IMG/VR virus record: IMGVR_UViG_3300035182_001074
Coordinates: 1 to 57,216 of that record
Length of the DNA: 57,216 bases
Strand: one strand, 5' to 3'
Source of the DNA: a virus
The position numbers and the translations under genes were made by a program. The notes under the pieces were generated by a model. It ran no database searches and had not been told where the DNA came from. It saw only the letters and a program-made list of their open reading frames with translations. Below are positions 18,779 through 52,526 of this stretch, in pieces; the first letter of the stretch is position 1; every line of letters starts with the position of its first letter.

Positions 18779-19105
18779 ATGGCCTACACCGGTCCCACCT
18801 TCCTCAGTCGCCAGGGGCCCACAGATCTCATCAACGCTGTATCGGCTGCGCCAATCGTCATCCCTGGCAGGGTCATCGGCCTGTGGGCCTGCCTGCCTCC
18901 TGGTTGCGCCCCTGTCATACCAGGACAGACCGCTTGTCCTCGGCCTATCCTGGTAGCTATGCAGGCCCACAATCAGGTCCACACCCTCTACGGTGAGCGC
19001 ATCCCGTCTCCACCAATGGGCCAACAGGTGGTGCTGATGCTGCCTGCCGTTTATAGCCGAGGAGGCATACCACTCAAGGGCCAGCAATTCCCGATATCGA
19101 GGTAG
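18779..19105 (+). CDS. Hypothetical protein in the tail cluster
   Basis: A 108-residue protein, MAYTGPTFLSRQGPTDLINA at its start, rich in Pro, Gly and Val, with the pattern PTDLINAV-AAPIVIPGRVIG and two Cys in WACLPPGCAP. It has no membrane helix. It lies 9 bp after the appendage gene and 3 bp before the hub gene and is likely translated with them. I do not recognise it; a virion role is inferred from position only. Confidence 0.5.
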   Translation: MAYTGPTFLSRQGPTDLINAVSAAPIVIPGRVIGLWACLPPGCAPVIPGQTACPRPILVAMQAHNQVHTLYGERIPSPPMGQQVVLMLPAVYSRGGIPLKGQQFPISR

Positions 19106-35214: not shown

Positions 35215-36110
35215 CTCGCTGCCCCAGCCAGTCGCTCGCCAAGGCTGATCTCCTCGCCAACTTCACGACCAGCATTGTATGCTTTGATGTCTTTGCGCGC
35301 AAGTTCACGCTGCTGCTGGCGCTGATATTTTTCCCACCATCGCTTGCTTGCCTTGGCTTCCTTCTCCTTCTCAGCAGCACTCTTCTCCGGCGCTGGCTCG
35401 GCTGCTCGCTGCTCCTTCCAGCGATCGCGCGCAGCCATTGCGCGAGCAAATGCACCTTCGCCATACCACGCGTCGTAGTTGGCCTCGTATTCTGTCTTAA
35501 CCAGCGACCGAATCATCAGGCCAGTTTCCTTCACCTCTGTATTAGCAGAAGGTGCAGGGTTCTGCATGGCATAAGCCTTTTGCCGGATTCGCTCTCCCAG
35601 GCGCTCGGCACACCCTTCTTTCCAGCTCACGCCTGACTTTGAGTTGCGTTCCTTGTTGCGGTATGGGCACAGATCCTCAATGAGCTCCGCCAGCCAGCCA
35701 TACATGCACATGACTGCGGCAACATTGGATTCCTTTCCAAGGATCATGTGTCGCTTGACTTTGTGGCGGTAGCTCTTTCCTGCACTCACCCGTTCTTCAT
35801 CCTCCAGCATCTCAGCTACCCAATACCAGCAGTAGTTAGCTTCAGCAATGGAACGGCACAGGTCACGCTGCCACTTATACATGGCGCTACGATCGATCTT
35901 GGTCTGCTCCCTCTTCTCCTTCTGTGGAGCTGTTCCGCCTTCAACCTCAGCTGCTTTGATTGTGGCCATGTCAAGGTTGTATTTCGCCAGCAGTTCTTGG
36001 GCACGACCCATCGCTAGCGCAGCCTCATTCTCGTTTGTGGCCTTGTTGCCCAGATTCAGTAGCAGCTGAATCTTTCGAACAATCTTGTCATTGATTGCTT
36101 CAGCCATCAC
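35211..36110 (-). CDS. DUF2786-like protein
   Basis: A 299-residue protein. Residues 5-50 (VRKIQLLLNLGNKATNENEA, ALAMGRAQELLAKYNLD) are the DUF2786 pattern. The middle (WQRDLCRSIAEANYCWYW, ILGKESNVAAVMCMYGWLAE) is the second domain usually fused to it. The C-terminal third is a charged coiled coil (EKSAAEKEKEAKASKRWWEK). Function unknown; common in phages. It overlaps its neighbours by 4 bp at both ends. Confidence 0.7.
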   Translation of the reverse strand: MMAEAINDKIVRKIQLLLNLGNKATNENEAALAMGRAQELLAKYNLDMATIKAAEVEGGTAPQKEKREQTKIDRSAMYKWQRDLCRSIAEANYCWYWVAEMLEDEERVSAGKSYRHKVKRHMILGKESNVAAVMCMYGWLAELIEDLCPYRNKERNSKSGVSWKEGCAERLGERIRQKAYAMQNPAPSANTEVKETGLMIRSLVKTEYEANYDAWYGEGAFARAMAARDRWKEQRAAEPAPEKSAAEKEKEAKASKRWWEKYQRQQQRELARKDIKAYNAGREVGEEISLGERLAGAAR

Positions 36111-36448
36111 CAGACTCCTTGAGCAGCTTCAGCCTGATTGCTGTGTTCTTCTTCTTTCAGGTAGACGACGTAAAGTCGCTTGCCAGATTCACAGGCAACA
36201 TAGCTGCCACCATCGTCAATCTTGTCGCCAGCCGCAATTGCTGCATTGAGTTTCCTCATCACAAAGGCAACGTCGCAATCACTGATGCTCTTAGGATCCA
36301 ACGCATGCCCGTTAGCCTTCTTGTATGCCTCGCGATCTGTGGTAGAGGGAACGAAATGCTTCCCGGAACAGCCGCAGCAGCATTTTCCGGCTCGGCCACT
36401 GTAAACACTGAGCACTTCGTCTAACGTAACTAGCTTTGTGCGCGTCAT
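36107..36448 (-). CDS. 113-residue protein preceded by hammerhead ribozyme A
   Basis: It starts MTRTKLVTLDEVLSVYSGRA and has a Cys cluster KCCCGCSGKHF at residues 22-32, possibly metal-binding, then a mixed domain ending KRLYVVYLKEEE. Its first four residues, MTRT, are also those of the next gene upstream. Its leader contains a complete type II hammerhead and the site AAAGGAGTGTGCCATG. The stop overlaps the DUF2786-like gene, so cleavage upstream would create the 5' end of the mRNA for all genes downstream. Function unknown. Confidence 0.6.
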   Translation of the reverse strand: MTRTKLVTLDEVLSVYSGRAGKCCCGCSGKHFVPSTTDREAYKKANGHALDPKSISDCDVAFVMRKLNAAIAAGDKIDDGGSYVACESGKRLYVVYLKEEEHSNQAEAAQGVW

Positions 36449-36468: not shown

Positions 36469-36552
36469 TTGAGCGATCTGGCTCATCAGCGACTGGGGAT
36501 CATTCCAGCCGGACGCCTGCTGCCTCACACAGCAGGCGTTTCGCCATCTCAA
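36469..36552 (-). ncRNA. Type II hammerhead ribozyme A
   Basis: Reading the minus strand: stem II 5' strand UGGC (36546-36543), GAAA, stem III of nine pairs (CGCCUGCUG with CAGCAGGCG, 7-base loop), U-C cleavage site (between 36512 and 36511), stem I of seven pairs (CGGCUGG with CCAGUCG, one G-U), loop AAUGAUCC, invariant CUGAUGA (36489-36483), and stem II 3' strand GCCA. An outer UUGAG/CUCAA pairing (36552-36548 with 36473-36469) may extend stem II. Every conserved core base of the hammerhead consensus is present, and the open stem II makes it type II. Confidence 0.92.
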
Positions 36553-36560
36553 ACGCGGTT

Positions 36561-37355
36561 CTAGCTGAGCAGGCCAAGCAGTGAGTGGCGCAGCTTGACG
36601 CTCAGGTCCATATTGTTCACGATCGTCTCAACTTTATTGCTATCCAGTTCTGTCTCAGTGTCATGGATAATGGACTTGACTGCCTCAGTAAAGTTCACCC
36701 CAGTAGTCAGATCAAGGTTATTCAGCGCATCAGCTACTAAGTCAGTGAAGTCGTAGTCATCCAGTCTATTTTCAACTACCTCGTGGATCGCCTCCTGGAT
36801 CTCCTCCTGGCCGTCCTCTATCTGATTTTTAACCTCGTTGTGGATCAACTTCTGAATTGAATCCTGGTTGTCCTCTATCTGACTTTCAATCTCGTCGTGG
36901 ATCCATTCCCTGATTGATCCCTTGCCGACCATGTCACTGAGAACAACGTCAGAACGGATGCCATCCATCTGTTCAACAAGAGTTTCGATTCGCGCAGTGG
37001 TGTCCATCTCAAGCTGGGCAACTCGCTTGCGAAGAGTGTCAATGCTTTGAATCAGCTCAGCCACCACTTCATTCGTCAGCAGAGTGCCTTCTTGTTCAGG
37101 CTCTTCACTGAAGGGAGCCTCTGCGGCGATGGCCCGCAGCGCAGCATTGGGAGCAGAGATGATAGGCGCATCAAGTTTGCGCTGCTGGACGTTCGCCAAT
37201 TCATCGAACGTCAGCGAGCACATGCGCTCAGCCAGCTTAATCCCATTGTGGTAAATTGCACCAGAGTTGTCAACTGTGGCTCCTAGCAGCAAAGCCACAG
37301 CTTCCATGTTCAGGCTGAACAGGTCGATGGTGCTGTTATTGTTTGTGCGCGTCAT
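36561..37355 (-). CDS. 264-residue coiled-coil protein between hammerheads A and B
   Basis: It starts MTRTNNNSTIDLFSLNMEAV. Residues ~95-135 are a coiled coil (VAELIQSIDTLRKRVAQLEM). Then come acidic helical repeats of the form IHDEIESQIEDNQDSIQKL / IHNEVKNQIEDGQEEIQEA / IHEVVENRLDDYDF, three units of ~20 residues at ~150-205. The helices and repeats suggest a rod-like or oligomeric protein; no family is recognised. A hammerhead ribozyme lies in its leader (37387-37451) and another just after its stop (36552). Confidence 0.65.
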   Translation of the reverse strand: MTRTNNNSTIDLFSLNMEAVALLLGATVDNSGAIYHNGIKLAERMCSLTFDELANVQQRKLDAPIISAPNAALRAIAAEAPFSEEPEQEGTLLTNEVVAELIQSIDTLRKRVAQLEMDTTARIETLVEQMDGIRSDVVLSDMVGKGSIREWIHDEIESQIEDNQDSIQKLIHNEVKNQIEDGQEEIQEAIHEVVENRLDDYDFTDLVADALNNLDLTTGVNFTEAVKSIIHDTETELDSNKVETIVNNMDLSVKLRHSLLGLLS

Positions 37356-37386
37356 GGCACACTCCTTTTCTTCAATTGAGCGATCT

Positions 37387-37451
37387 GGCTCATCAGCAGT
37401 AGCGGATCATTGCTACTGGACGGTGCGGCAAGCTCGCCGCACCGTTTCGCC
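37387..37451 (-). ncRNA. Type II hammerhead ribozyme B
   Basis: Minus strand: stem II 5' GGC (37451-37449), GAAA, stem III of nine pairs (CGGUGCGGC with GCCGCACCG, 6-base loop GAGCUU), U-C cleavage site (between 37419 and 37418), stem I of seven perfect pairs (CAGUAGC with GCUACUG), loop AAUGAUCC identical to ribozyme A, CUGAUGA (37396-37390), stem II 3' GCC. Only three stem II pairs are certain. The stem I and III sequences differ from A but remain paired. It lies between the 78- and 264-residue genes, 32 bp before the start codon. Confidence 0.92.
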
Positions 37452-37481
37452 TCATGCAGTGATCTTCGGAACAGCTTGCAA

Positions 37482-37718
37482 TTATTTCCCCACTGTCGTA
37501 GGCCGCATTGCCATGCTCATGCGGTCGAATGCCTGGTCAATGTGTTCAACAGCAGAAGTGATGTGGTGCTTTTCGCCGCGCAGCTTCACGCTGGCCAGTT
37601 CAATTTTCAACCGCAGCAGCGTTGCTTGAACCTTCTTTAGCTTCTCAATTGTGCGTTCACGCTCAGTCATTTGGTCCCCTGAAGTGGGAAGGGCTGTGGG
37701 CTGGATCGTTGCGCTCAT
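37482..37718 (-). CDS. 78-residue coiled-coil protein preceded by hammerhead C
   Basis: It starts MSATIQPTALPTSGDQMTER and is mostly one charged helix (TIEKLKKVQATLLRLKIELA). Start ATG 37718 has AAAAGGAG at correct spacing, right after the ribozyme. It is the first gene of the ribozyme-punctuated set; a 700-bp stretch without an obvious gene lies upstream. Function unknown. Confidence 0.6.
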   Translation of the reverse strand: MSATIQPTALPTSGDQMTERERTIEKLKKVQATLLRLKIELASVKLRGEKHHITSAVEHIDQAFDRMSMAMRPTTVGK

Positions 37719-37744
37719 GGCGCGTCTCCTTTTGTTGAGCAACC

Positions 37745-37809
37745 TGGCTCATCAGCAGCGTGAGGTCATCCACGCTGGACTGCTCGCGAAGATGCGAGCA
37801 GTTTCGCCA
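37745..37809 (-). ncRNA. Type II hammerhead ribozyme C
   Basis: Minus strand: stem II 5' UGGC (37809-37806), GAAA, stem III of eight pairs (CUGCUCGC with GCGAGCAG, loop AUCUUC), U-C cleavage site (between 37778 and 37777), stem I of seven perfect pairs (CAGCGUG with CACGCUG), loop GAUGACCU, CUGAUGA (37755-37749), stem II 3' GCCA. It precedes the 78-residue gene by 27 bp. The core is identical to A and B while both helices have changed with compensation. Confidence 0.92.
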
Positions 37810-38263
37810 TCCAATGAGAACGAAGAGAGTCTCAGGCTTCCTGCGTCGGTCTCCAGTTTGGGTCTCTTTCGTCTGTGCTTTCCGCTAGGTGTCATCACGA
37901 CAAGGGATTTAAGCAGCCTCACACAGCATCCAGTTCTACAAAACTGTTCTCGTTCTCATCCGTTATCTGTGTGATCAGGAACACCAGTCACAACAGGAGA
38001 GAGCTGCAACGCCACACCAGGACCATCAGCGCCAGCTCATCTCGCATTTTCAAATCACAGGTTCATCATCTCTCTGCTCAGCAGCACCCGTTGGGATGAA
38101 CAACACCCACTCAAGTCCTAGCTATCAGATCAACTTCCGCCTGCTCACTTCGGCTCCCCCAACCAGCCGCACGCCCTCAGCCTCAACTGAGTGACCATCG
38201 TAATTATCTCGCCATTTAGGCCACTTTGGTTAATTTTTTTCCGCACAGAAAACTGCTGAAAAT
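37810..38263. other. Gene-poor stretch upstream of hammerhead C
   Basis: About 450 bp without a convincing gene. A short basic minus-strand frame (MTPSGKHRRKRPKLETDAGS onward, starting ~37892) runs through ribozyme C but has no ribosome-binding site, so I do not call it. The stretch is likely leader and promoter sequence for the ribozyme operon. I cannot point to a clear -35/-10 pair. Confidence 0.4.
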
Positions 38264-38423
38264 AAACGACTTATTGATTCAACAGCTGCCCACAATATAA
38301 GCACTTTTATGGGCATTTGCTTCTAACTGCCTAGATACAAACGACTTACTGATCCAGCAGATGCCCATAATATAAGCACATTTATGGGCATCTGCTTCTA
38401 GCTACCTGGATACAAACGACTTA
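38264..38423. repeat. Two 75-bp tandem direct repeats with hairpins, abutting the dnaE stop
   Basis: Units start with AAACGACTTA at 38264 and 38339, and a third partial unit starts at 38414 and runs into the DNA polymerase stop codon. In the second unit GCAGATGCCCATAA (38357-38370) pairs perfectly with TTATGGGCATCTGC (38382-38395) around an 11-base loop. The first unit keeps most of the pairing with some G-U pairs and mismatches. Possible roles are tandem terminators behind dnaE or a replication/protein-binding site. Confidence 0.8.
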
Positions 38424-41270
38424 CGCATCACGCTTGGAATACTGCTCCAAAGCCCCGACCCCGCTGAGCTTTCGCCAGGCAGTTATGCGCACCTGCCTGA
38501 AGCCAGCTTTCACTTTGCCCTTGAAGATGAACCAATCGTTCATGCGCCCATGCTCAATCAGCGGCAAACCAAGCTTGTTGTAGTCGTGCCGATCAACCAT
38601 GCACGCAATCTGATCTGTGTCGTCTTCTGCTGTGAACAGCACCATCAGGCTCGGTCCCTTGATGATGCTGCCATTGCGCTTCTTCACGTGCGTTGGATCA
38701 TTGAGATCGCGAAGATCCTTCTCGATGATCTTAGCAATGAAACAGCATTCTACTTCTCCATCCTCACTCTGCACATCCTCAACATTTTTCAGCTTTGATC
38801 TGATGCCATAGCGCCCCGGCTCTCGCTTTAGGTGGCCCCATCTCTCTTCACACTCAAAGATGTGGTCGTATGGGGTTGAGCCATTGGCGAGTTTGTTCTG
38901 CTGGCCTGCTGTCAATTCAATGCCTCGTGACCTGCGTAAGAGGATCTCGCTGGCCATCTTCTCGCCAATGCCCTTGATGTTTGTCAGTCCGCCAATCAGT
39001 TGCCCTTCTTGCACTGACCAGGTCTTCTGGGAAAGAAAAGGATCGTATGGCTTGAAGACATAGCCTTCCTTATGAAGCTCCCGCAGGAGCCGGATGGACT
39101 GCTCCTCGTCTTTGGCATTGCGAAGGCAAGCAGCACCAAACTCCAAGGGGAACTTCGCCTTCATTACCATGCACCAATAGCTGACCATTGCGTATGCAAC
39201 TGCGTGGCTTCGGTTGAATGACCACGAACCCATGGTGTTGATCTGGTTCCAGACTCGCAGAGCATCATCCTCATTGATTCCCTGCTCAATTGCGCCAGTG
39301 CGAAAACGGAACCAATACTGATCAAAGAATTCTTTCCCCAAGGATTTTGACATTGCTTTGCGCAGACTTGTCACATCTGCCCAGCTCAACTTACCCATGT
39401 CACGCGCAATCTGGATCACCTGCTCCTGGTAGATCACGATGCCATAGGTAACCCTGGTGATGTGAGCGATCATCGGATGCAATGGGGTCGCTGGGTGTTC
39501 CCCGGTTCTCCTTCTGATATACTCTGTGGTGCCTCCTGAATGCAACGGACCAGGCCGTGCTAGGGCTGTCATTGCTGCGATATCTTCAAAGTTCTCCACT
39601 GCGAACTGGTTGACCAAGGACTGAAGTGCATGGCCTTCAAACTGGAAAATGCCTGCGAACTTCCTGTCGTTTAGGATGTTGAACGCAGACGCATCATCAG
39701 TTCTGTAATCAATCAGCTGCTCGCGAGTCCATCCAACCTGGTCAAGACAATCCTGAAGAACAGATAGTGTCCGCAGGCCAAGCGCATCAATCTTCAGAAG
39801 GTTCAATCGTTCTGCATCAACCTTGTCAATCTGAGCAGCACCCTTCTGGTTGTCAACTGAACAGTAATAGCTGATTGGCTCTGCAGTCACGATGATGCCA
39901 GCAGCATGCTGACCATGCCCTGATGCGTGCCCTTCAATGTCGCTTGCTGTGATCATCTGCGGATATTTTCGCAGCACTGCTCGGCCAATCTCAAGCTCAC
40001 TGAAGGTGTCAGCAATGCAAAAGCCTGCGCGAGAATCTCCACCACTTCGTTCAATGATTGAGTTTTTCAAGTCTGTGACTTCCCACAAGGGAACGTTCAA
40101 TGCCTTAGCGATGGTGTCGATGGCGCTCTTGGCTTTGTAACGCATAACAGTTCCCAGCCGGGCGACCTTCTCCTGACCATATTTCCTGTATAAATATTCG
40201 AACACCAGGTCGCGACGATCGTCGGGGAAGTCAATGTCAATATCAGGATAGTCAAAACGATTGACGTCAATGAATCGTTCAAAGAGCAGTCCGTAAGGAA
40301 TCGGGTCAATCTCTGTGATGCGCAGCAGGTAGCACACAAGCGAGCCACAGGACGAGCCACGCGCAGGACCAACCAGCATTTCACTTTTTGCATATTGAAC
40401 CAGATCCCACACGAGGTAGAAGTAGTCCTCAAATCCTTTGTCGTGGATCAGTTCCAGTTCCCGATCTAGCCTCGCTGCATAAACTGGATCTTTCAAGTCA
40501 ACCTTGCGCTGTGGAGCGGCCTGCTCACACAGCGCACGCAGAGTCGGTAATGATGGATCTGCCTTGACCATCGTGCCGATTGGCAGGTCTGCGTTGCACA
40601 TTTCCGCAATCTCAGCTGCGGTGCGCAATGCTTCCTCCTGTCCAGGCCAACACAGTTTCCATTCGGTGCTGCTCAGCAGATGCATAGGCGAAGTTCTCAT
40701 CAGCTTTTCATGGCCAGTCAGAGCTTCATACACTGCCTTATCGGTGATGCGCGGATAATAATTATCTGAGGTTGCAACTGTCTTGAACCCACGCATGCTG
40801 GCGAATTCTGGTGCCTTCATCTGCGAAGCTGGGCTTAGCTCAACGTATATATTTTTTCGCTTTGGTAAATTGCCCCACACAGGATGCGAGCCAGACAGAA
40901 CAATGACGCTGTCGCTGATATCAAGAAGTGTCGTGTAGTCAATGCGAGGGGTGTAGTAGAAGTTCTCTTTCTTGGTGCTGAGCCCAACAAGCTCATAGAT
41001 CTCACGCAGCCCTTTGTTGTCTTTGGCCAAGAACACCATCATGTTCATGCCCTGTTTGGTGCGAGCAGTCATGTCATTGACTACTGCTAGCTCAACCCCG
41101 AAAATCGGCTTGCGCTTGGCTGCTTTGCATTTGTCATTCCACTCAACATGGCCAAATGTATTGTAGCGATCTGTTATGGCGACAGGCCCTTCTGTTGCTG
41201 CCAGCACCTTGTCAACAGGACCGAATGCCTCTCTAAACGAATACTCAGTCCTACATCGAAGGTGGATCAT
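38421..41270 (-). CDS. dnaE: DNA polymerase III alpha-like replicative polymerase
   Basis: A 949-residue DnaE-type C-family polymerase, shorter than the ~1160 of E. coli. The catalytic core has PDIDIDFPDDRR (two metal-binding Asp) and SFNRSHAVAYAMVSYWC. After it come a helix-hairpin-helix (LTNIKGIGEKMASEILL) and an OB-like region; the tau-binding end appears absent. The N-terminal PHP domain has lost metal ligands: HLH is HLR (3-5), TDH is TDR (33-35), and the later DxHY is DNYY. So PHP proofreading is probably dead; a separate DEDDh exonuclease gene lies upstream. Start 41270 is chosen because its ATG overlaps the previous stop (ATGA) and GGAG precedes it. Confidence 0.9.
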   Translation of the reverse strand: MIHLRCRTEYSFREAFGPVDKVLAATEGPVAITDRYNTFGHVEWNDKCKAAKRKPIFGVELAVVNDMTARTKQGMNMMVFLAKDNKGLREIYELVGLSTKKENFYYTPRIDYTTLLDISDSVIVLSGSHPVWGNLPKRKNIYVELSPASQMKAPEFASMRGFKTVATSDNYYPRITDKAVYEALTGHEKLMRTSPMHLLSSTEWKLCWPGQEEALRTAAEIAEMCNADLPIGTMVKADPSLPTLRALCEQAAPQRKVDLKDPVYAARLDRELELIHDKGFEDYFYLVWDLVQYAKSEMLVGPARGSSCGSLVCYLLRITEIDPIPYGLLFERFIDVNRFDYPDIDIDFPDDRRDLVFEYLYRKYGQEKVARLGTVMRYKAKSAIDTIAKALNVPLWEVTDLKNSIIERSGGDSRAGFCIADTFSELEIGRAVLRKYPQMITASDIEGHASGHGQHAAGIIVTAEPISYYCSVDNQKGAAQIDKVDAERLNLLKIDALGLRTLSVLQDCLDQVGWTREQLIDYRTDDASAFNILNDRKFAGIFQFEGHALQSLVNQFAVENFEDIAAMTALARPGPLHSGGTTEYIRRRTGEHPATPLHPMIAHITRVTYGIVIYQEQVIQIARDMGKLSWADVTSLRKAMSKSLGKEFFDQYWFRFRTGAIEQGINEDDALRVWNQINTMGSWSFNRSHAVAYAMVSYWCMVMKAKFPLEFGAACLRNAKDEEQSIRLLRELHKEGYVFKPYDPFLSQKTWSVQEGQLIGGLTNIKGIGEKMASEILLRRSRGIELTAGQQNKLANGSTPYDHIFECEERWGHLKREPGRYGIRSKLKNVEDVQSEDGEVECCFIAKIIEKDLRDLNDPTHVKKRNGSIIKGPSLMVLFTAEDDTDQIACMVDRHDYNKLGLPLIEHGRMNDWFIFKGKVKAGFRQVRITAWRKLSGVGALEQYSKRDA

Positions 41271-41422
41271 CGCAATCTCCATTCCACAGTTTCAATCTTA
41301 TCACACAGATGGATTCGGATGATGTATTTCGCCCACAGATAATACCAGCTTGGTGTGCGTCCTTCAAACATGCGCCCTGAAGCTACCTCCTGAACGAAAT
41401 CATACAGCTGAGAAGGCATCAT
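41267..41422 (-). CDS. 51-residue protein coupled to dnaE
   Basis: It starts MMPSQLYDFVQEVASGRMFE and continues GRTPSWYYLWAKYIIRIHLC. Both ends overlap neighbours by ATGA: with the 38-residue gene upstream and with dnaE downstream. That spacing supports a real gene and fixes the dnaE start. No family is recognised; an accessory to the polymerase is possible from context only. Confidence 0.55.
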   Translation of the reverse strand: MMPSQLYDFVQEVASGRMFEGRTPSWYYLWAKYIIRIHLCDKIETVEWRLR

Positions 41423-41556: not shown

Positions 41557-42093
41557 TTACATCATAGATTCTGCGCGTAGCCATCTAACACAGCGCACCA
41601 GAGCCTCTGTGTCAGCCATCGCCCGATGCGCATCCTTGAAGTCTTCTCCTGTGCAATGCAGATGCAAGTCGCTAAGTCGCATGCGCTTGTTGTTGATCCC
41701 AAAACTTGCCTCAACGGTGCACACCTGCTTTGGTGGCCAAGGAAAGGCAAACTCCTTACCGATGCGAATCAGTTCAAGCTTGAGCAGCGTCTTATCAAAG
41801 TCCAGATTGTGCGCAACCATCATCTGCTCCCCGAGGAAGAAGTCACACAGATCATGATAGTGCGAGGCGAAAGGCTCCTGATCCTTCAGCATTTCATCCG
41901 TAATGCTCGTGATCTTGATGATCTCTTCTGGGAGAGCACAGCCGGGATTGCACATGAAGGTAAGGCGCTCAATTTCCTCCAGCGTGATGTCATCCAGCTT
42001 CACTCCGGCGAATTCAATGATCTGTGGCTGCTCTTCAATGCGGACTAGGCTTGGCAGGATCAGGCCTGTTGTCTCAGTATCGAAGATGATCAT
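41557..42093 (-). CDS. DEDDh 3'-5' exonuclease, DnaQ-like
   Basis: A 178-residue proofreading-type exonuclease. FDTETTG at residues 4-10 gives the first Asp/Glu pair; HNLDFDKTLLK (~93-103) is Exo II; DAHRAMADTEALVRCV near the end is the Exo III motif with His and Asp. These are the four DEDDh residues. It lies in the dnaE operon and probably supplies the proofreading that the degenerate PHP domain cannot. Start ATG 42093 overlaps the upstream stop (ATGA). Confidence 0.87.
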   Translation of the reverse strand: MIIFDTETTGLILPSLVRIEEQPQIIEFAGVKLDDITLEEIERLTFMCNPGCALPEEIIKITSITDEMLKDQEPFASHYHDLCDFFLGEQMMVAHNLDFDKTLLKLELIRIGKEFAFPWPPKQVCTVEASFGINNKRMRLSDLHLHCTGEDFKDAHRAMADTEALVRCVRWLRAESMM

Positions 42094-42449
42094 AGGTTCG
42101 ACCACATGTCGTCTGCTTGTTTCTGACGCTGTAGCTGTGCCTCTCGGTCAAGAGACTCCAGCATAGATGCATAGACAATGAGGTCGTGCTGGCTGTCAAT
42201 GTGTCCGACCTCAAAGTTTGCTGCATAGCGCGCAATTTTGACTACCTCCATGTGGAAACAGCCATATCGGTTCCAGTCCTCGGGGCTGTTGATGGTTAGG
42301 CCATTCGGGAACAAGGCCATCATGATGTGGCCAAATCGCTTGTATGCCTCTCCGCTGTTTCCACCATACTGCTTGCCGCGCTGCGCGAAGGTTTGCATTG
42401 CATCCTGCAAGCAGATCTGCGGTCCAGAGATTGTGCTGCGATCATCCAT
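42090..42449 (-). CDS. DUF6378-like protein
   Basis: A 119-residue protein: LQDAMQTFAQRGKQYGGNSG near residues 12-32, HMEVVKIARYAANFEVGHID near 68-87, DLIVYASMLESL near the end. The AQRGKQYG...KIAR pattern matches small proteins found in nucleotide-metabolism clusters of phages. The HD/KIAR features resemble pyrophosphatase-like folds, but the activity is unknown. It overlaps neighbours on both sides. Confidence 0.6.
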   Translation of the reverse strand: MDDRSTISGPQICLQDAMQTFAQRGKQYGGNSGEAYKRFGHIMMALFPNGLTINSPEDWNRYGCFHMEVVKIARYAANFEVGHIDSQHDLIVYASMLESLDREAQLQRQKQADDMWSNL

Positions 42450-42910
42450 CAGTAGTCTCCTTTCTGAACTTGAAAGCAAGTCAAGCCTTCTTTGCGCCAC
42501 ATGTCAACCACAGCATCCCGATCCTCGAACACCCCAACGACATCAAACAGTGGGTAGATCTGCTCGTGATAGATCTCACGTTTGATGATGTGATCAGATC
42601 GATAATCGCCATCCTTGCGCATCAAAAGGCGACGGAATGGGACTCTGTGCTTGATCAACCATTGGATGGTGGCTTCCTGGTAGCGAGAGGACCTCCCAGT
42701 CACCAGGATAATTGGATACCCATCCGCGTTTAAGGCATCGACCACACGAAGAACGTCTGTCTTTGGCTCATCAAGGTTCAGCATTGAATTGAACACTTCC
42801 CAGTTCTTTGTGCCGTGTGGATTGCTGATGTGTATGATGCGATGTCCGCAGTCGGCTATGGTCCCATCAATATCAACGATGTAACACTTAGTCTTGCCGA
42901 CCGCATTCAT
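42449..42910 (-). CDS. HAD-family phosphatase, polynucleotide 3'-phosphatase-like
   Basis: A 153-residue HAD phosphatase. DIDGTIAD (13-20) is motif I with the nucleophile Asp13; VTGRSSRYQEATIQWL (~77-92) is motif II; FEDRDAVVDMWRKEG (~130-144) is motif IV. The arrangement and the RKDGDYRSDHIIKREIYHE stretch resemble the phosphatase half of T4 Pnkp, without its kinase. It could repair 3'-phosphate ends, or act on a nucleotide in the neighbouring modification cluster. ATGA overlap with thyX fixes the start at 42910. Confidence 0.8.
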   Translation of the reverse strand: MNAVGKTKCYIVDIDGTIADCGHRIIHISNPHGTKNWEVFNSMLNLDEPKTDVLRVVDALNADGYPIILVTGRSSRYQEATIQWLIKHRVPFRRLLMRKDGDYRSDHIIKREIYHEQIYPLFDVVGVFEDRDAVVDMWRKEGLTCFQVQKGDY

Positions 42911-43758
42911 TTGGCCTCCTTGGGAGCATCCATCCCGGTTGGCTGGGCTTCTGCGCGAGTGACTTCCCACAGCTTCTGAATTTCTTCTTTGGTCAGGATG
43001 GCATCGGGGATCTCAAATGGTTCGCCACCCCGACCTTCAACCTTGTGGCATCTGTTGTCATAACGCCGACCAGTGTCAGGGTTGAACACCCCACCCTTGA
43101 TCGGGCAGTCCATGTAGTTGGGAAAGCAGCATGTGCCATTTGTTGCGCAGAACACTCGCAGCATCGGCTCAGTCCACGGCAGCTCCTGGACCACAACACG
43201 GCGAATCTCACGCATCACATTCTGGAACTCTCCTTGTGCTTTCACACACAGACGTTCCCCACACATGTGATGTAGTGTTCGCAGATTTGCTTTGAAGACG
43301 ATATTGGTGCACACATTAGTCGGCAGAACACCACGTGCATCTTGAGCATTGGCACCAGCTTCAATGAGTGCGGAATAGCCGGAGTTGATCTCATGCATCG
43401 TGTTGTCGTAGATCTCTTTGAGCTCCTCGTCTGCGAGGATGCCACCTGTGGTTACGTATTCAAAATCAGCCATGTTCACAGCTCGTTGGGTCTGCTGTGC
43501 GAAGGCAGTCCCAACGCGATGCCTTACTAACTGGTGAGTGAAGGCTCGTGTGACTCCTTCGATGTAGAAGATGAAGTCAATCATCTCCCACGAGGACTTG
43601 ATCGTCCCTAGCATGTAGCGGAGCTCGTCCTTTTTCTTGTCGTCGGTCCAGCTTTCCACGACATCAAGACCATTTGCGCTCATCATGAGCCTGGTCCCTT
43701 TCGTGAATAGCAGCGTCTCAAGGGCACGTGGTGTGTGGTTGATAAGGGTGATTTTCAT
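42907..43758 (-). CDS. thyX: Flavin-dependent thymidylate synthase (ThyX-like)
   Basis: A 283-residue ThyX homologue that would methylate dUMP to dTMP with FAD, NADPH and methylene-folate. GVTRAFTHQLVRHRVGTAFA (~68-87) followed by QQTQRAV is the ThyX signature. It is altered: relative to RHRxxSxNxxSxR there is one extra residue and Thr in place of Ser. The C-terminal ~70 residues add a Cys-rich segment (CATNGTCCFPNYMDCP) and a helical tail. Start ATG 43758 has AAAGGAG. Next to a carbamoyltransferase and a FAD oxidoreductase it may act in DNA modification instead of plain dTMP supply (inference). Confidence 0.85.
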   Translation of the reverse strand: MKITLINHTPRALETLLFTKGTRLMMSANGLDVVESWTDDKKKDELRYMLGTIKSSWEMIDFIFYIEGVTRAFTHQLVRHRVGTAFAQQTQRAVNMADFEYVTTGGILADEELKEIYDNTMHEINSGYSALIEAGANAQDARGVLPTNVCTNIVFKANLRTLHHMCGERLCVKAQGEFQNVMREIRRVVVQELPWTEPMLRVFCATNGTCCFPNYMDCPIKGGVFNPDTGRRYDNRCHKVEGRGGEPFEIPDAILTKEEIQKLWEVTRAEAQPTGMDAPKEAK

Positions 43759-50341: not shown

Positions 50342-51208
50342 CTAAATCTCACCTTCGATAGAACCAGCAGGATCAATGATCGCTGCCGCGTCGTGATCGG
50401 CAACCTTCACAGAGCCAGACACCACCGCCTTGCGGAAGCTGCGCGAGCCCAGATAGAGGTCGTGGCCGCCAACCAGCTCCAGCGTGGGCTTGTAGGGATT
50501 CACCTTCCACACATACCAGGTTCCGTCGTCGTTGGACTTGGGGATGGTGGTGAGCTTGTAGCTGTGGTAGAAGATAGCCGGATTGAAGACGCCTTCGCCA
50601 TCAGGACGAGGAACCATGAGATTGCTCATGAGGCTGTTCCATCGCTTGGCCTCACTGAACATCGTCCTGCTCATGCTGATGACAACCTGGCGAGGCAGCC
50701 CAGTCTCCGGCTCAAGCATGACGCAATAGTATTCAGCAGTTTCCACCATGGTGTGACCATTGGGAAGCTGCATCTGCTTCTTCTCATTCTTCACACACTG
50801 GTTATACAGGGTGTCATCCGTTCCGTGATCTGCCACGAACTTGCGATTGTCCCACTCAATGTAGGCACGACGATAGCTGACAGGAATGACGATGATGCCT
50901 TCCTCACCAGCCCATCGCTTGCCGCTGATGTTGTCAATGATCTCGCCAACCTCCGCTTCCTTGATGTAGGCAGGATCACCCTTGGTGCAGGTCGGGCTGA
51001 GCGCCTGGAGAATGGCCAGCCGAGGGATTGCCAGATCTTTGGCGCTCATTGTCTCCCGACCAGCACCTTCATCTTCCAGCAGCAGGCTGGCGATGTCAGA
51101 GGTGACAAGGCCAGTGTTCGTATTCGGCGTTGCCAGCTCCTGCTTCTTCTCTTCGTGCTTCTTCACTTCCTTCTTCGCTTCCTCGTGGTGGGGCTGCTGC
51201 TTGGCCAT
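50342..51208 (-). CDS. Putative single-stranded-DNA-binding-like replication protein
   Basis: A 288-residue protein with a charged, Glu/Lys-rich N-terminus. A core follows that is frequent in phage replication clusters: KDLAIPRLAILQALSPTCTK, EVGEIIDNISGKRW, GIIVIPVSYRRAYIEWDNRK. Then come AEYYCVMLEPETGLP, PAIFYHSYKLTTIPKSNDDG and YVWKVNPYKPTLELVG. Members are commonly annotated as ssDNA-binding, but I cannot prove this from the sequence. It ends acidic (GSIEGEI), as many SSBs do. AAAGGAT precedes ATG 51208. Confidence 0.55.
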   Translation of the reverse strand: MAKQQPHHEEAKKEVKKHEEKKQELATPNTNTGLVTSDIASLLLEDEGAGRETMSAKDLAIPRLAILQALSPTCTKGDPAYIKEAEVGEIIDNISGKRWAGEEGIIVIPVSYRRAYIEWDNRKFVADHGTDDTLYNQCVKNEKKQMQLPNGHTMVETAEYYCVMLEPETGLPRQVVISMSRTMFSEAKRWNSLMSNLMVPRPDGEGVFNPAIFYHSYKLTTIPKSNDDGTWYVWKVNPYKPTLELVGGHDLYLGSRSFRKAVVSGSVKVADHDAAAIIDPAGSIEGEI

Positions 51209-51228
51209 GACTTAATCCTTTGAGATTG

Positions 51229-51242
51229 GGCGCACATGCGCC
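51229..51242 (-). promoter_or_regulatory. Leader hairpin GGCGC-ACAT-GCGCC
   Basis: A 14-base palindromic stem-loop 21 bp before the SSB-like start. It is nearly identical to 34970-34985 in front of the DUF932 gene. Confidence 0.6.
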
Positions 51243-51272
51243 ACTGGGTTAGAACTGCTTGCTGTTGAGATC

Positions 51273-51488
51273 CTAGTCAACACTTCCTGCGTCGGCACTC
51301 TCTTCGCCTTCCTCGCCAGTGCCTTCAGCCTCTTCGCAAAGACCATCAAAGTGATTCTGAAGAAGCTGCCGAACCAGTTTTGCAGCTGCACTCGGAGCTC
51401 TGTTAGGCTTCTCGAAAACATGGCATTCATCAGAGGTGTCTTGCTTAATGAAGACACCATTGGCGGCTGCTTGGATGATGATGATCAT
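51273..51488 (-). CDS. Hypothetical 71-residue acidic protein
   Basis: It starts MIIIIQAAANGVFIKQDTSD, has ECHVFEKPNRAPSAAAKLVR in the middle, and an acidic tail (EEAEGTGEEGEESADAGSVD). TGGAGC precedes ATG 51488. The first half resembles small phage proteins with the pattern IIIQ-A-NGF-V--D. Function unknown. Confidence 0.5.
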   Translation of the reverse strand: MIIIIQAAANGVFIKQDTSDECHVFEKPNRAPSAAAKLVRQLLQNHFDGLCEEAEGTGEEGEESADAGSVD

Positions 51489-51507
51489 ATTTGCTCCAGT
51501 AGTTGGG

Positions 51508-51843
51508 TTAGATGAGCCGAGACTCGACTGCGGCCAGTCGCTCGCTAAAGGCGGATAAAAGAGATTCGAGATTCGCAATGCGGACATCAGTTGGAAGGGC
51601 ATCCTGTGCCACGACAGGCTTCAGACGAGCAGCCACTGCCAGACGCTTCGTGGTGACGCGCACGAGCAGATTGGAAGAAACAAGATCTTTGATGAGGCCA
51701 GTCATGGATGCTGCGGACAGGCACACATTCTCACGAGCCAGCATCAGCGCCAGATCAGCAGTGCGCAGCTCCTTTCCAACTGGAAGTCTATTGATCTCTT
51801 CTACCAGGATGCCATGTGCTCTGAGAATGCTGGCCGCGCTCAC
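51508..51843 (-). CDS. Small winged-helix-like protein
   Basis: A 111-residue protein: RTADLALMLARENVCLSAAS, then MTGLIKDLVSSNLLVRVTTK, which reads as helix-turn-helix plus wing. The C-terminus is a short coiled coil (IANLESLLSAFSERLAAVES) that could dimerise it. It may be a DNA-binding regulator of the early region. It overlaps the upstream gene by ATGA. Confidence 0.55.
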   Translation of the reverse strand: MSAASILRAHGILVEEINRLPVGKELRTADLALMLARENVCLSAASMTGLIKDLVSSNLLVRVTTKRLAVAARLKPVVAQDALPTDVRIANLESLLSAFSERLAAVESRLI

Positions 51844-52526
51844 TGGGCTGATCCTTTCTTGGTGCCCTTGGCTTTGGCGGGGAGCTTGATAGTAGCCTTG
51901 CGACCACTGAACAAGGCGAATGCATCTGCGGGAATGGATTTGCCTCCTTTGAGTGCCTCCTTGAGATAAGCATTCAGAGTTTGGAAGTTGATCTCTTCTT
52001 CACACTTCGCAGGGAAGCCTTCGTTCTTGATCTTCTCAAAGAATTTCTTGGCATCCTCGTCCTGTCCCTTGCCGAACAGCACGACCACCTGGTTCTTAAT
52101 CAGACTTTCAGCACCCTGCTCACGCAGCCAGGTCAGTGCCTTCATGCGACGATCCATCAGCATGCCACGATCGAATTCATCAGCACCTTCAATCTGGTTA
52201 GTCGTTGGGATTGTGCCACGCACGAAATCGCCGACCTCAACCACATACCCAGATGACAGCGTGAACTTCTTCATCCCAATGGCCAGCATGACGTCTGGAA
52301 GCAGGTCCAGCTGGATCTTGGCGTAGCGAGCAGTCTTCTTCTTCATCTCCTCCGACAGCTGCTCCATCTCCTGCTCGAGAGCCAGCATCTCATCAGCGTA
52401 AGCAACCAGTTGCTGGAGATCATTTGCACCAGCAGGTGGGGCCGCGTCCTCCAGCAGATCGATGCTCGGCTGCATCTCAGGCGGTTGACCCTGATCTGCT
52501 GCGACTGTGTGGGTTCTGTTTTCCAT
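51840..52526 (-). CDS. Conserved phage coiled-coil protein
   Basis: A 228-residue protein of a family common in phage replication clusters. It has an N-terminal coiled coil (EMLALEQEMEQLSEEMKKKT), LPDVMLAIGMKKFTLSSGYV, RRMKALTWLREQGAESLIKN, VVVLFGKGQDEDAKKFFEKI, then QTLNAYLKEALKGGKSIPAD and the ending SGRKATIKLP. The order helix-strand-GxG-helix is conserved, but the function is unknown. AAAGGAG precedes ATG 52526. Confidence 0.65.
   Translation of the reverse strand: MENRTHTVAADQGQPPEMQPSIDLLEDAAPPAGANDLQQLVAYADEMLALEQEMEQLSEEMKKKTARYAKIQLDLLPDVMLAIGMKKFTLSSGYVVEVGDFVRGTIPTTNQIEGADEFDRGMLMDRRMKALTWLREQGAESLIKNQVVVLFGKGQDEDAKKFFEKIKNEGFPAKCEEEINFQTLNAYLKEALKGGKSIPADAFALFSGRKATIKLPAKAKGTKKGSAQ

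Follow-up and report, generated by a model that had tools for sequence, protein, structure and literature searches.

The stretch of DNA analysed here (the window, 57,216 nucleotides) is a 57-kb tailed-phage genome record, IMG/VR virus record IMGVR_UViG_3300035182_001074. The portal, major head, tail sheath, baseplate and terminase genes are located on the plus strand, and most replication genes on the minus strand. At 50342-52526 (minus strand), Pfam matches (DUF7307 and Pam3_Gp34) reveal homologues of gp33 and gp34 from cyanophage Pam3; despite these homologues, the head protein is closest to those of Klebsiella and Burkholderia phages, and the host is uncertain. In the order of minus-strand transcription, the gene for DNA polymerase III alpha (38421-41282; PHROG 405, E 7e-234; Pfam DNA_pol3_alpha) is followed by roughly 600 nt in which no convincing ORF was seen (37815-38420) and by three genes, each with a hammerhead ribozyme in its leader: hammerhead C with a 78-aa gene, hammerhead B with a 264-aa gene and hammerhead A with a 113-aa gene. 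The 78-aa gene (37482-37718, minus strand, with AAAAGGAGA upstream of the ORF) had no match in PHROGs or Pfam. For the 264-aa gene (36561-37355, minus strand, an ORF with AAAAGGAG) the same two collections gave no confident family, and no relative was confirmed in IMG/VR. The product of the 113-aa gene (36107-36448, minus strand) resembles that of the gene behind the second hammerhead of a related contig (L127), as judged by comparing the translations by eye.

Hammerheads A (36472-36546), B (37379-37452) and C (37743-37809), all on the minus strand, were found with the Rfam Hammerhead_II model (RF02276) at 39.2, 38.9 and 36.2 bits. A and B are above the gathering score of 37 bits, and C is 0.8 bits below it with an E-value of 1.4e-4 in an 8-kb search. 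The covariance-model search proposed in the initial annotation thus agrees with its assignment of three complete type II hammerheads, and the predicted cleavage sites (36512/36511 in A, 37419/37418 in B and 37778/37777 in C) are identical to those given there. A direct check showed the invariant core to be intact in all three copies, as had been claimed (C3 U4 G5 A6 N7 G8 A9, G12 A13 A14 A15.1, U16.1 and H17), including the GAAA and CUGAUGA elements and a C at H17. Stems I and III are closed by hairpin loops and stem II is open, which is the type II order. Stems II, III and I comprise 4, 11 and 7 bp in A, 3, 11 and 7 bp in B and 4, 9 and 8 bp in C; the initial annotation was right in assigning 7 bp to stem I of A and B, though not of C, while its 8 to 9 bp for stem III apply to C only. 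Its observation that the stems differ in sequence among the copies and remain fully paired holds for stems I and III of each. The conserved flanks and loop I, also pointed out there, are explained by the known type II pseudoknot, of which they are the two halves: UGAUC in loop I pairs with GAUCG in the 3' tail of A and B, and UGACC with GGUUG in C. A, B and C are therefore confirmed as genuine type II hammerheads, their activity being a prediction.

With a structural finder requiring at least 10 bp in stems I and III together and at least 2 bp in stem II, three matches were obtained in the window, compared to one in 100 dinucleotide shuffles of it; viral loci selected by a scrambled pattern, 336 kb in total, served as a control and gave no match. 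Three hammerheads within 1.3 kb are hence not a chance occurrence. No further copies were found in the window. A and B share a block of 81 nt (84% identical) that extends from the ribozyme, including its tail, through the start codon. Stems I and III of the two copies nevertheless differ and are still completely paired. Taken together, the shared block and the differing yet paired stems suggest that the leaders were probably duplicated at least once and then diverged under selection for pairing.

The closest relative with hammerheads is contig L127, the polymerase of which is 76% identical to that of the window. It has two hammerheads; the second precedes the gene similar to 36107-36448, which is followed by an apparent counterpart of the DUF2786 gene of the window. 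One hammerhead was found in L125 (polymerase 60% identical), with complementary sequences in loop I and tail (CATTCGC/GCGAATG), and none in L128 (polymerase 40% identical), either by the structural finder or with Rfam. A DNA-level search of GenBank phages gave no relatives of the hammerhead array or of the noncoding region 37815-38420. The latter aligns in collinear blocks with a region of the same size in L127 (71% over 56 nt and 84% over 32 nt), has no Rfam match and shows an ordinary folding energy across most of its length (z 0.07); it could be an unknown RNA, the 3' end of which would be trimmed by hammerhead C. Two tandem repeats of 75 nt (38264-38413, minus strand, 87% identical) lie directly past the polymerase stop codon, each containing a hairpin (GATGCCCATAA...TTATGGGCATC) and GTCGTTT. 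No counterpart of these repeats was seen in the aligned L127 and L125 regions.

Natural type II hammerheads and their pseudoknot between loop I and the 3' tail, which is common in this type, were introduced by Perreault et al. 2011 (PMC3088659), who described clusters in prophages flanking single genes or short gene blocks and proposed that they process RNA into single-gene mRNAs. Three of these arrays cleave in vitro, and the triple array of Agrobacterium tumefaciens does so in E. coli as well. Self-cleaving ribozymes were furthermore reported to be enriched close to other ribozymes (PMC10085705). In IMG/VR, 379 distinct type II hammerheads, including A, B and C of the window, were collected from 226 loci with up to nine per locus. 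Among cultured phages, Streptomyces phage Hank144 carries eight and Streptomyces phage R4 at least three, and all eight and all three are situated between annotated genes; those of R4 are predicted at positions 18956, 18273 and 16512 of its locus (L364). Arrays of three are thus commonplace in phages that bear hammerheads; the view of the initial annotation that a tandem series between genes is unusual is contradicted by the clusters of PMC3088659, the IMG/VR loci and Hank144, and the array of the window belongs to the already known class of clustered phage hammerheads. The feature tables of R4 and Hank144 contain no hammerhead annotation despite three and eight complete type II copies, and some of the annotated starts are oddly near the cut and may be misplaced. 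Very dense arrays comprise nine copies in 8.5 kb (L260) and five in 2.3 kb (L272); in these and in two further dense arrays (L102 and L093), some copies have a GGC stem II together with CCUC tails.

The original placement of the hammerheads between successive genes is borne out, each being in the leader of one gene: the ATG start codons lie 59 (C), 63 (B) and 63 nt (A) past the predicted cleavage sites. These values are close to those of the IMG/VR loci, where an SD-led ORF start was found no more than 90 nt past the cut in 316 of the 379 hammerheads, at a median distance of 57 nt (quartiles 52 to 61); by comparison, 33% of random positions on the same strand of the same loci passed the test. 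Where neighbouring genes are co-directional, the upstream stop codon is a median of 3 nt away from the ribozyme, a spacing derived from rough automatic gene calls with many false antisense ORFs. The positional claim rests on the SD-led ORF count and the annotated phages rather than on these calls. No common function was found for the genes behind the hammerheads, the families being mixed and mostly unknown, so that no single gene function accounts for the ribozymes. The narrow range of cut-to-start distances and the adjacency to stop codons fit a cutter acting between cistrons, and intercistronic processing is most likely the role of these hammerheads. The idea that the 5' strand of stem II masks the start codon (AUGGC/GCCAU in A and C) was considered as well and rejected, as the pairing is not kept in L127.

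Besides the pseudoknot, the 3' tails contain a second element that was missing from the initial annotation. In all three copies, a tail GCUC is complementary to GAGC of the core (G8 and A9 plus positions 10.1 and 10.2). The resulting tail hairpin of A (UGAGC-CAGAUC-GCUCA, 36470-36485), in which U7, G8, A9, 10.1 and 10.2 are paired with the tail, has an isolated fold of -6.0 kcal/mol; those of B and C are located at 37377-37392 and 37736-37751 (all minus strand), with an isolated fold of -5.7 kcal/mol for C. All three hairpins are supported by their sequence and by covariation in relatives. A, B, C and both L127 copies end in GCC-AGNNN-GCUC-A, one base of the NNN being counted with the pseudoknot. 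Across the hammerheads collected, complementary tails were observed 43 times, compared to 21.8 expected from tail swapping (sd 3.3, maximum 35 in 2000). When only the exact register is counted, CUC outnumbers every other trinucleotide (34 of 378 hammerheads; runner-up 15); in 32 of these 34, position 10.2 is complementary to the base preceding CUC (20 C-G, 12 G-C, two mismatches). When contigs are clustered by linking loci with tblastx matches in common, the C-G form occurs in three and the G-C form in seven of nine clusters (L102 has both forms), besides the two mismatching copies. The pairing base thus switches along with stem II in other phages; covariation is limited to this one base pair, the catalytic core leaving the other three no freedom to vary. 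Most type II hammerheads lack the motif, and those that have it come from few lineages. In a set of 32 hammerheads with the tail hairpin, the mean complementarity between loop I and tail is 4.31 bp, compared to 3.47 bp (sd 0.125) with loops swapped, and none of 1000 swaps reached 4.31. No mention of such a tail hairpin was found in the literature searched, the coverage of which was incomplete.

Neither stem II nor the active core can form together with the tail hairpin. In the 3' cleavage product, the partner strand of stem II is gone, and the predicted pair probability of the hairpin is 0.75 for C, 0.36 for B and 0.74 for A. Cleavage by a hammerhead leaves a 2',3'-cyclic phosphate and a 5'-OH. 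According to the scheme we favour, the type II hammerhead in the leader of each gene would cut after GUC, so that the polycistronic RNA falls apart into pieces of one gene each. Stem III would remain on the upstream message, forming a hairpin at its 3' end that bears the cyclic phosphate. The 5'-OH, together with the stem I hairpin, would open the downstream message some 60 nt before the start codon. The freed core GAGC would then pair with the tail GCUC to form a second hairpin, the loop of which would hold the pseudoknot strand and could thus engage loop I in a kissing contact. By removing the stem II strand, this hairpin might hinder reversal of the cleavage, block religation and structure the 5' end of the message. 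We regard it as probable that the leader hammerheads cut the polycistronic RNA in this way; the tail hairpin would form afterwards and may make cleavage hard to reverse. The sequences show the motif together with its conservation, its position and the substitutions by which pairing is preserved, while cleavage in cells, the folding order and the effects on mRNA stability or translation are what we infer. More tentatively, and with less than even confidence, these copies might represent a type II subfamily with a built-in switch, in which the tail covaries with stem II and, following cleavage (or ahead of it, as an off-state), base-pairs with the core, and the pseudoknot is turned into kissing hairpins at the new 5' end. 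If this holds, cleavage would be one-way and the message stable.

Sequence alone would be compatible with a hairpin acting after cleavage or with one holding the uncut RNA inactive. As an off-switch, it would form before cleavage, disrupt the core and stem II, and be opened by translation, a ligand or a protein, resulting in processing regulated gene by gene. Nested folding of the uncut leaders points in this direction, since the tail hairpin is favoured over an almost absent stem II in A (probability 0.74) and C (0.96), although this calculation ignores the pseudoknot and the tertiary core of the active fold. Many hammerheads are within a few nucleotides of a stop codon, and terminating ribosomes could thus affect folding; the tail GCUC, however, is transcribed last, so that the ribozyme can fold first, and the natural arrays known so far need no trigger for efficient cleavage (PMC3088659). 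We therefore consider an off-switch unlikely.

It is still less likely that the hammerheads are passive hitchhikers on duplicating or recombining gene cassettes and hardly affect expression. The A/B block from ribozyme to start codon implies at least one duplication, and the mixed gene families behind hammerheads in other phages would fit such a passage, but stems that diverge with pairing kept, a covarying pseudoknot and tail, and the tight start spacing argue for selection for RNA folding. Finally, the formation of circular or spliced RNA, by cleavage and ligation or by phage end-repair enzymes joining the ends, is highly improbable. An enzyme of the kind able to heal such ends, a polynucleotide-kinase-type 3'-phosphatase (PF25109), is encoded at 42449-42970 on the minus strand, but the protein has no kinase domain, and no RNA ligase was found among the proteins scanned. 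PF25109 is present in four out of 40 contigs with hammerheads, including two from relatives of this phage, and in none of 30 controls, which is no general link. A search for circular and spliced products by Perreault et al. was negative (PMC3088659). The Pnkp-type phosphatase was accordingly discarded as an RNA end repair partner. The gene following it (42090-42500, minus strand) encodes a 136-aa protein with a weak polynucleotide kinase PHROG match that Pfam did not confirm, and its assignment as a kinase was rejected.

The results bear on what hammerheads do in bacteria and phages, a question dating from 2011. Intercistronic cutting, our preferred reading, leads to testable predictions on mRNA processing from the tight spacing between cut and start in hundreds of cases, and the arrays in cultured Streptomyces phages make them concrete, as R4 grows on S. 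coelicolor A3(2), a laboratory strain. Whether cleavage is irreversible or regulated is likewise made testable by the covarying tail hairpin. Clusters of type II hammerheads in phages are already known; the extra covarying tail hairpin is the little-noticed part. The copies of the window match RF02276 in the core, the open stem II, the GUC triplet, the pseudoknot and the phage context, while the consensus line of the family lacks the tail GCUC that can pair with the core GAGC in the window. In the arrays of A. tumefaciens, Clostridium scindens and Azorhizobium caulinodans (PMC3088659), several hammerheads likewise flank single phage genes within one polycistronic RNA; that of A. tumefaciens is cleaved in vivo in E. 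coli, whereas the array described here belongs to another phage with other genes, and its cleavage is predicted. The arrays of Hank144 and R4 are similarly located in gaps between co-directional genes, and several of their copies have the same GCUC tail, with Hank144 carrying more copies than the window; the two phages represent a different lineage.
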